The notes below the pieces were generated by a model, which was not told the origin of the DNA, did no database searches, and worked only from the letters and a program-made list of their open reading frames with translations. A DNA stretch of 64,000 nucleotides. Origin: a virus. The position numbers and the translations under genes are program-made. The DNA lies in IMG/VR virus record IMGVR_UViG_3300042520_003271, positions 1-64,000 of that record. One strand, written 5' to 3'. Each line of letters opens with the position of its first letter. Within the stretch, counting starts at the first letter, position 1. Of the stretch, positions 7,692 through 19,481 are shown piece by piece.

Positions 7692-10600
7692 TTACGGTGG
7701 ACAAAGCGTGCTGTAAGCAGCGATAGTACTATCACTTTGGGGAACATAAATCATCATACCATCGCTGGTACTTCCTATATAATATGGCGAAGCATTTCCA
7801 ACGCCGACAATTGTAGCGCCACCAATGAGTATGCCTGTTGTTGGGTCTTTGTCGGCAATTACCATCACCGGCCCAGCGCCAAAGTATATGGCTCGTCCGT
7901 CTGGTGATTCTACCATGGTGGAATTACCGGTGCCACTGTTTGGGTTAGGGATATAAAATGTAGTTCCAGATGGGGTTAGTCCGCCGGTTGATAAATTAAC
8001 ACTGTAAGTATCGATGGCCATATTATCGAAGGTGCTGCTATTGTATCTGCTTGACACATAAAGGAATAGCCCATCAGATGAAATAAGTATTGATTGAGCC
8101 TGACCACTTGCATTGCCACCTAATGAGTATTGGTTCATTTTAGTTAGGCCGCCAGTAAACGCATTCCTAAAAAAGACGGCGATAAATCCTAGGTTAGTAC
8201 TATTCTCGAAACATAAAGCATATAAATATTTATCGTCCGGGGACATTAGTATCTTATAAACAAACCCAGCTATAGAGATGTTAGAGTTACAGTTTACTAT
8301 CCCTAAGATCTGCAACGCTCCGTTTGTAGTATTTCTACTTAGTATAGATATTCTGGTATCACCAGTTCTTTGATTAGTAACATAGATATGTTTATTGTCT
8401 GAAGTTCCAACCATATTCCAAGGGCTATCTATAGCTAATATCGTTAAAGCGTTTAATGTACCGTTAGTAATGTTTTTGCTAAATGTCGTTATTGAACCAC
8501 TGTCGCCATTAGCAGTATAAAGGAATCGGCCGTCTTGCGATTCATACGCCATAATCGGATTTAAACCGTTGCAATCGGTAAATCCTATAAATTCAAGTGT
8601 TCTATATGTGGTGATGGCATATTGCCTTACACCATTCGGTTGGCCAACACCTGTGCCTCTAACTGTAACATAAGCATAATTCTGATCATGCGAAACGAGA
8701 ATATGAACCGGCAAGCTAGGAGCGGCGATCGATTCGACGTATGTTAAACAATGTGTTGTGGTCGGTGTAGGAGTCGGTGTTGGCGTTGGCGTTGGCGTTG
8801 GGGTAGGTGTTGGCGTTGGACTAGGTGTTGCGGCTGCCAAAAGACTTGCGGCAGCCAGATTTACACGGGCCGTTCCGACACCAGCAGTATCTGTAGCTAC
8901 CACACCAACATTCGAAACCAGATTGCTTAGTGAGACATATGAACCACTACCGCTATAACCATAACCAAAGATCGCATTACCTGATCCATAGCCGGCCGCT
9001 GCTAGGTTACTACGTTCTGTGCCGACACCAGCAGTATCGGTTGCTACTACGCCATTTTCGTTTATTAAATTGGTGATCGATAAATATGCCTGTGTGTTAC
9101 CAAAGCCGAATATCGCTTTACCGCTGCCATAAGATGAAGCCGCTAGCCCTGACCTAGCAGTACCGACGCCGGCACTGTCGACAATAATATCACCGAGATT
9201 GCTTACCAAATTCGTGACAGCTACAACCCCGCCAGTTGTTAGCCCATAACTAAATATGCCTTTATCTGCACCATAACCGGCAGCTGCCAAAAGCGATCTA
9301 GATGTTCCTACAGCGAAGCTATCTGTCTCAATAACACCGAGCGATGATACTTTGTTAGAAATTGAAACCGCCACCGCTGATTCATTAACACCAAAGGCAA
9401 ATACTGCTTGACCTTGACCATAAGGGGCGGCGGCCAGATTCTTTCTGCGTGTGCCCACTAGGTCTTGTGCGGTTTCCAAATCGCCGGTATTTGTGACAGT
9501 ATTAAATGTAACCATAGGTAACCATTGGTCAGTTACACCATAAGCAAAGATTGCCTTGCCATCGCCGATAGCAGCCGCCGCAATGCTTGACCTTACAAGT
9601 CCGATATAGGTAACGTCTGCTGCCACAACTCCAGAACTATTAACTAAGTTCGTTATGCTTACATTCATAGAATTAGAGGTCAAACCGAAACCAAAGATAG
9701 CGCCTGTGTTAGAAGATGGCGTCGGTGTCGGTGTCGGTGTCGGTGTCGGTGTCGGTGTTGGCGTACCATCATTCATCAATAGTATACTAGAAGTGTTTGA
9801 TATTGTGACTGATGAAGCGTTGCCACTAGTCAACAATGTCATTGTATTCAAATCAGCACCAAATGTGTCTATACCAAGTTGATGGTCTTGATTACGTCCA
9901 GAACCATATACATAGTATGCTGAAGGCGTTGGTGTAGGCGTTGGTGTAGGCGTCGGTGTTGGTGTAGGCACCAGCGAGCTTAATAATGCAGTGCCATAAT
10001 TCATCTGAGCGATTTGGGTCCAATCGGTCGCATTGTTTAACTTAGTAAACAATGGCCCAACGGCGCTAGTATTACCTTGGCCTAATTGGCCGTATTGATT
10101 CTGCCCTATCCCCCAAACAGTTCCATCACTCTTTAGACCAATTGTGCTCGACATACTAACGATATTATTCCAGTCAGTATCTGTTCCAACTTGAGTGTAA
10201 TATATCAGACCGATGGTGGTGGCAGGGTTAAAGCCTAGTATGCTATAATTCTGTGATGATGATAAAGCATTTAACCCTGTAGCCCAAAGAGTACCATCAT
10301 TCTTGATAGCGAATGATGCACCGTATTGAGTAGAGAAGCATCTTAGCCAATCAGTATCAGTACCAATTTGCGTAAGAAATGAGTAAAAGGAATCAATACC
10401 ACCACCATAGCGATGATAACCCGTGATTTGACCGCTTGGTGGTTCGTAACCTCTGCCAACACCCCAAAGAGTATTATCATCTTTGATCGCTATGAATGCG
10501 CTAGGTAGCGCCGCCATCATCCAAGAGCCATTGTACCAAGTCTGCGCATCCATTGCGGTAAATGTGCTTAAATTTATCGTGCTTCCTGTGCCAAGTTCAT

Positions 10601-19481: not shown

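Follow-up and report, generated by a model that had tools for sequence, protein, structure and literature searches.

In the usual picture of phage host recognition, each fibre works through one tip domain. In the major tropism determinant (Mtd) of Bordetella phage BPP-1, for instance, an N-terminal anchor domain is combined with a single C-type lectin tip, which is diversified by a retroelement. Propellers are found among host-recognition proteins as well, and the receptor-binding protein Gp45 of phage phi11 has a single propeller per chain. Both Gp45 (PMC4901313) and the K1F endosialidase, with one propeller per chain (PMC10607447), are propeller-containing host-recognition proteins, the role that we propose below for a much longer chain. 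Flexible multi-domain adhesins have been described in phages under the name of tentaclins, which are proposed to be tentacle-like, consist of Ig-like domains and a C-type lectin, and in phages reach 830 aa at most (PMC10743442). Propellers of the RCC1 type are represented by GAP_001 of the Rak2-like jumbo phage GAP32, which mass spectrometry identified as a virion protein, and by the 13 RCC1 genes of phage 121Q (PMC5259590). In the Rak2-like jumbo phages 121Q and PBECO4 these are many separate genes, and Synechococcus phage S-SRM01 encodes several RCC1 propellers near its baseplate and tail-fibre genes, again as separate single-propeller genes. Serial RCC1 propellers (23-24 blades), encoded next to tail-fibre genes, occur in the Clostridioides phages ES-S-0173-01 (1,593 aa) and LIBA6276 (1,627 aa, AUO78257.1).

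The window analysed here comprises the first 64 kb of the record of an uncultured virus (86,912 bases in total), and its positions 7692-19481 form one uninterrupted minus-strand ORF with an ATG at 19481, a stop at its end and 3,929 encoded residues. The initial annotation, which gave no strand, had described this unbroken frame as a fibre with a single phage anchor domain followed by about nine serial propellers of the RCC1, Asp-box, YVTN and KAIFGFG types, most of them joined by Thr-Pro arms. This description is confirmed, with nine propellers mapped, the Asp-box member being probable, and eight linker sites. The protein has an N-terminal anchor domain in common with BPP-1 Mtd but propellers in place of the lectin; it carries nine propellers where the K1F endosialidase has one, and gathers in one chain what the Rak2-like phages distribute over many genes. 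The Clostridioides chains differ in being built of RCC1 propellers only, without Thr-Pro linkers or a match to Mtd_N, and in being less than half as long, while the tentaclins are likewise flexible but made of other domains. We consider it probable that a large tailed phage makes this protein as a giant tail fibre (or whisker) of modular build, which acts as a multivalent, recombining propeller adhesin. The initial annotation had likewise suggested a multivalent adhesin with several receptor-binding sites; of this reading, the analysis supports a chain of different, closed propellers on disordered Thr-Pro linkers behind one anchor domain, encoded among tail-fibre genes, and the receptor-binding sites are putative.

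The surrounding record also encodes a UvsX-like recombinase, a DnaB-like helicase and a DnaE-like DNA polymerase. The latter is split into two minus-strand genes that match PHROG 405 at 440-1048 (57233-59956) and at 42-439 (61208-62608), with a gap of ~1.25 kb and small ORFs in between. A search for a reverse transcriptase (RVT_1) in the 86.9-kb record, itself possibly a fragment, found none, and a diversity-generating retroelement was therefore dropped as a candidate; with propellers instead of a C-type lectin and no RVT_1 in the record, the protein does not classify as an Mtd proper either. Since mis-assembly typically strikes at tandem repeats and Thr-Pro microsatellites, a chain of this kind could also arise when several fibre genes are joined artificially, a possibility that the initial annotation had raised. 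The independent IMG/VR contig 3300027782_000025 (L013; 274,625 bases), however, encodes a 3,921-aa homologue with 82% amino-acid identity, the same modules in identical order within a single frame, and the same upstream genes. Because this independent 274.6-kb contig repeats the module order at such identity, an assembly join is excluded, and we regard its probability as negligible.

The module map was built from Pfam, sequence motifs and our own blade profile, and contains nine propellers with ~62 blades (five RCC1, two YVTN/lactonase, one KAIFGFG and one probable Asp-box) besides a partial FG-GAP stretch, a stray RCC1 blade and a 116-aa beta domain. All features given below lie on the minus strand. 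The anchor region (residues 1-215; 18837-19481), identified with Pfam and the PHROG tail fibre families, consists of Mtd_N (PF18454) at residues 5-42 (E 1.8e-10; 41 bits against a Pfam cut-off of 26.3), which qualifies the protein as an Mtd_N phage fibre, and of a fibre region common to the 211-aa gene upstream. That gene is one of three more fibre genes that begin with an Mtd_N-type N-terminus (211, 589 and 192 aa), which stand in tandem at 19494-22470 according to Pfam, PHROG and our own profiles; among 50,697 phage records, including those of cultured phages, the neighbouring fibre genes have no relatives at the DNA level. The anchor is followed by three FG-GAP repeats, seen as three stretches of Pfam FG-GAP_2 (residues 216-385; 18327-18836). 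An FG-GAP propeller closes its ring with seven repeats, and three are too few for closure, so we list this stretch as an incomplete propeller.

The first complete propeller, RCC1-A (residues 390-795; 17097-18314), has seven blades, one of them interrupted by a Gly/Thr-rich insertion, and is recognised by Pfam WD40_RLD with 162 bits as well as by the blade profile. A Thr-Pro linker of 16 units, which the repeat and linker scans show to be a 12-bp tandem repeat in the DNA (16965-17060), separates it from the probable Asp-box (BNR-like) propeller of ~7 units (residues 840-1133; 16083-16964), assigned from motifs and from sub-cut-off matches of a paralogue. Next come the diverged seven-bladed RCC1-B (residues 1140-1555; 14817-16064) and the small beta domain (residues 1556-1671; 14469-14816), which was delimited with a profile of our own, is predicted by AlphaFold with a local pLDDT of ~75-85, and recurs in a 4,361-aa ORF of the same record. 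RCC1-C (residues 1686-2046; 13344-14426), which is related to UVR8/RCC1 structures, RCC1-D (residues 2053-2423; 12213-13325) and, beyond the first YVTN/lactonase propeller with its seven SPDG-type blades (YVTN-1, residues 2434-2789; 11115-12182; Pfam Lactonase 123 bits and motifs), RCC1-E (residues 2793-3172; 9966-11105) have seven blades each and, like RCC1-B, were mapped with Pfam and the blade profile. A single RCC1 blade (residues 3187-3239; 9765-9923; 13 bits in the blade profile) is flanked by Thr-Pro linkers and is likely the remnant of a deleted propeller. The chain ends with the six-bladed KAIFGFG propeller (residues 3256-3551; 8829-9716), a Thr-Pro linker of 11 units that is predicted to be disordered (8763-8828; AlphaFold pLDDT <50), and the C-terminal YVTN/lactonase propeller of ~7 blades (YVTN-2, residues 3574-3929; 7695-8762), which is supported by Pfam, motifs, AlphaFold and Foldseek. 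Altogether, Thr-Pro linkers of 3-16 units stand at residues 808, 1134, 1672, 2047, 2424, 3171, 3240 and 3552, between most of the modules, and most of them are 6- or 12-bp tandem repeats at the DNA level.

The modules differ in how firmly their identity can be assigned, and the profile searches, which together with blade counts and structure prediction had been suggested as checks, gave a divided result: Mtd_N, RCC1 and lactonase matches lie above their cut-offs, but the Asp-box and KAIFGFG modules are without a Pfam match. The blade counts were seven in each RCC1 module, ~7 in each YVTN module and six in KAIFGFG. All five RCC1 modules combine seven blades with repeats above cut-off, RCC1-D via RCC1_2 alone, and both YVTN modules score as lactonase-like (PF10282; 123 and 71 bits against a Pfam cut-off of 21.7). 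In YVTN-2, five blade starts fit a strict SPDG-like motif, and inspection by eye gave two more, TSDN and TSDG. The S/T-x-D-x3-W motif occurs six times in residues 840-1133, at intervals of 39-44 residues, compared with a mean of 0.14 and a maximum of 3 in 20,000 shuffled sequences. This module matches no library profile, Pfam included, and its paralogue reaches the BNR, Ycf48 and Sortilin models only below cut-off; an AlphaFold model that covers it together with RCC1-B and the 116-aa domain has a pLDDT of 34, the homologues being too few for an informative prediction. Given these three observations, we grade its assignment as a seven-unit Asp-box propeller as probable.

The presence of lactonase- and Asp-box-type propellers, which could be enzymes, is one point against an adhesin, as the protein might be a string of enzymes that process surface glycans, with these propellers as hydrolases or lyases (depolymerases) and the RCC1 and KAIFGFG modules as their carriers. 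Asp-box propellers include sialidases and lyases, which speaks for such a string, but RCC1 and YVTN propellers are, to our knowledge, mostly non-catalytic. The Lactonase score is well above the Pfam cut-off in two modules, and the endosialidase of phage K1F is itself a propeller (PMC10607447). On the other hand, the Asp-box profile finds nothing better than E 0.88 in the PDB, enzymes included, and we consider an enzyme string improbable.

KAIFGFG is a family that we define here by six repeats of ~49 aa folding as a closed ring; in the fibre, residues 3256-3551 form six repeats of 47-49 aa each. No match to it was found in Pfam, NCBIfam, the 50,697 phage records, cellular genomes or, by sequence, the PDB, and the best PHROG stretches of the whole 3,929-aa protein all lie outside this module. 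IMG/VR contains it in at least 40 loci, and it also occurs in unnamed proteins of uncultured Caudovirales phages (A0A6J7XFV6; 54% identity, rmsd 1.2). Its repeats number 6 in 92, 18 in three and other values in four of 99 non-redundant complete viral ORFs. An AlphaFold model based on an alignment of 47 sequences gives pLDDT values of ~95 for KAIFGFG, <50 for the linker (298-318 of the model) and ~84 for YVTN-2, which forms a separate domain. Searched against the PDB with Foldseek, this two-module model has tandem double propellers as its top matches, and its single-propeller matches include, at TM 0.83, a Kelch domain with six blades (6hrl) and, at TM 0.78, a phosphogluconolactonase with seven (1ri6), the scores being given without the part of the model covered. 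Since the repeats come as 6 or 18 in 95 of the 99 ORFs, a stepping by six not expected of a solenoid, and since the module is predicted with a pLDDT of ~95, the models and counts indicate that KAIFGFG is a closed six-bladed propeller. AlphaFold and Foldseek thereby rule out, for KAIFGFG and YVTN-2, the open solenoid against which the initial annotation had set its propellers, and repeat counts quantised in 6 and 7 do so for the KAIFGFG and RCC1 families; the prediction of closed, separate domains stands for KAIFGFG and YVTN-2, but did not extend to the uninformative Asp-box model. In contigs 3300013014_000053 and 3300013006_000027 (L030/L038), KAIFGFG chains of 12 and 18 repeats correspond to two and three serial propellers without Thr-Pro linkers.

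KAIFGFG genes have a conserved companion, P3, recognised by its co-occurrence in the same loci; here it is a 207-aa protein encoded at 5032-5655. P3 is conserved in 97 viral stretches, with 58-97% identity among the 80 matches listed, and has no match in Pfam or PHROG and nothing in the 50,697 phage records. A KAIFGFG gene is also present in 71 of the 79 loci fetched by P3, compared with P3 in 0 of the 79 loci from the RCC1 scan, and the distance between the end of the upstream KAIFGFG gene and the start of P3 is at most 60 bases in 81 of 94 cases. This arrangement suggests that P3 is likely a dedicated partner or chaperone of KAIFGFG fibres. A relative of P3 (61% identity) lies in the bin of a Planctomycetaceae genome, on a contig of 3.4 kb (CALARU010000394.1; L217), and is a weak lead to a host or a binned virus.

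The sister phage on contig L013 offers a view of how the chain evolves. Identity between the two homologues is 98% in KAIFGFG, 94% in RCC1-A, 67% in RCC1-C and RCC1-D, and 40% in the C-terminal YVTN-2, the most divergent module. Silent-site divergence is 0.4-0.6 across most of the gene and the flanking genes but drops to 0.08 in the 3′ half of YVTN-1 and most of KAIFGFG, and because protein constraint does not account for such a swing at silent sites, this comparison of sequences points to a recent exchange. Two of the three strongest identity breaks, at residues 1689 and 3580, are each at most 18 residues away from a Thr-Pro linker, but the third lies inside YVTN-1. Over all seven change-points, proximity to linkers is not significant (P 0.21), so that not every exchange took place at a linker, and we dropped the idea that all recombination does. 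Two neighbouring genes show more clearly how modules change, with linkers as the sites involved. The gene that follows the fibre ORF (651 aa; 5691-7646) encodes an RCC1 and a KAIFGFG module, between which its 1,309-aa counterpart in the sister phage has ~680 extra residues of YVTN repeats, equivalent to two propellers inserted at Thr-Pro linkers. The gene at 2798-4951 (717 aa) has an Asp-box-like part in common with its counterpart (61%), but past the Thr-Pro linker it continues with KAIFGFG here and with YVTN in the sister. Linkers also vary in length between the phages, for example 16 compared with 3+8 units. As judged from these alignments, whole propellers are lost, gained and swapped between sister phages.

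These patterns also bear on whether the protein could be a structural whisker or spacer, its propellers being mainly rigid beads that lengthen the tail or cover it and bind mucus, particles or nothing specific instead of a host receptor. Its length and repetition would suit a spacer, and jumbo phages with many RCC1 genes can bear hair-like fibres (121Q; PMC5259590, PMC7824862). A pure spacer, however, needs neither several unrelated propeller families nor replacement module by module, and no other module has diverged nearly as far as the C-terminal tip (40% against 67-98%), as expected for a binding tip; moreover, phage CBB bears whiskers without having the RCC1 protein of GAP32 (PMC5259590). 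We therefore think a spacer unlikely, though it is the alternative that we take most seriously.

Viral contigs often encode RCC1 proteins (at least 588 stretches), and the number of RCC1 blades is seven in 131 of 152 non-redundant complete viral ORFs, with a few ORFs of 14-28 blades that represent chains of one family. Serial propellers are also encoded on other IMG/VR contigs, 2-4 of them in the case of RCC1 and 2-3 in that of KAIFGFG. Among the loci from the KAIFGFG, RCC1 and P3 scans, ORFs with at least two propeller families were found in this phage and its sister only, in a test that covered four families with our own profiles and does not amount to a census. Another mixed gene of this phage encodes YVTN and RCC1 modules (1,662 aa; 27305-32293, minus strand); it is adjoined by an 885-aa gene with RCC1 (24639-27296, minus strand). 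The 4,361-aa ORF mentioned above (G000 73256-86341, minus strand, corresponding to 1257-14342 of locus L014) starts with a different N-terminus; its modules comprise one of the RCC1 type, Asp-box-like ones and three KAIFGFG propellers, the 116-aa domain recurs in it, and it has 11 Thr-Pro linkers. A 1,720-aa viral ORF on contig 3300027754_000060 (L219, 6711-11870) has YVTN propellers behind very long Thr/Pro-rich linkers and represents another lineage with tethered propellers, although a single propeller family was detected in it and its N-terminus differs. No protein that combines mixed closed propellers, Thr-Pro linkers and an anchor was found in the 50,697 phage records, nor did we find a mixed propeller chain of a phage described in the open-licence literature. 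The initial annotation knew of no described phage fibre with so many different propellers. One-family chains exist; what stands out is the mixing of families, the number of propellers and their tethering by Thr-Pro linkers, serial propellers themselves being already known.

Phage RCC1 propellers are classed under DNA, RNA and nucleotide metabolism in PHROGs 7220, 4219 and 16766, and here they lie within tail-fibre genes; the class apparently stems from the eukaryotic name of the family. Taken at face value, this class would make the protein an effector or scaffold that acts inside the infected cell, which we consider very improbable given the Mtd_N anchor, the neighbouring Mtd_N fibre genes and the detection of a phage RCC1 protein in virions by mass spectrometry (PMC5259590). 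A role in the virion is instead supported by the position of the gene and by this same finding for the RCC1 protein of GAP32.

For the adhesin that we favour, we infer a virion location, trimerisation, ligand binding, a gain in avidity and a role of the linker DNA. The Mtd_N-type N-terminal domain would dock the fibre on the tail, and disordered Thr-Pro linkers would space nine rigid closed propellers, whose unrelated families number at least three, probably four, and whose loop faces are of a glycan- or protein-binding kind. Many weak or differing surface contacts could then raise avidity and widen the range of surfaces gripped before other parts of the tail commit to injection, with the most variable module placed at the free end. 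Recombination would insert, delete or replace whole propellers, and the Thr-Pro linkers, as 6-bp repeats in the DNA, may help in this. A bolder reading, which we put forward only tentatively and hold to be possible rather than probable, is that of a new class of adhesins in which each propeller has a different ligand and is a swappable cassette, the linker microsatellites are recombination joints, and the set of grips is edited as one gene; KAIFGFG with P3 as its assembly partner would then be a major, as yet unnamed receptor-binding system of uncultured phages. Nine mixed propellers, with modules gained and lost between sisters, would show another route to avidity and breadth than the one tip per fibre, and the sister phages are a natural experiment on the evolution of receptor-binding repertoires. 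The KAIFGFG family and its conserved partner gene, both absent from the libraries searched, would make many unannotated viral fibre loci recognisable.
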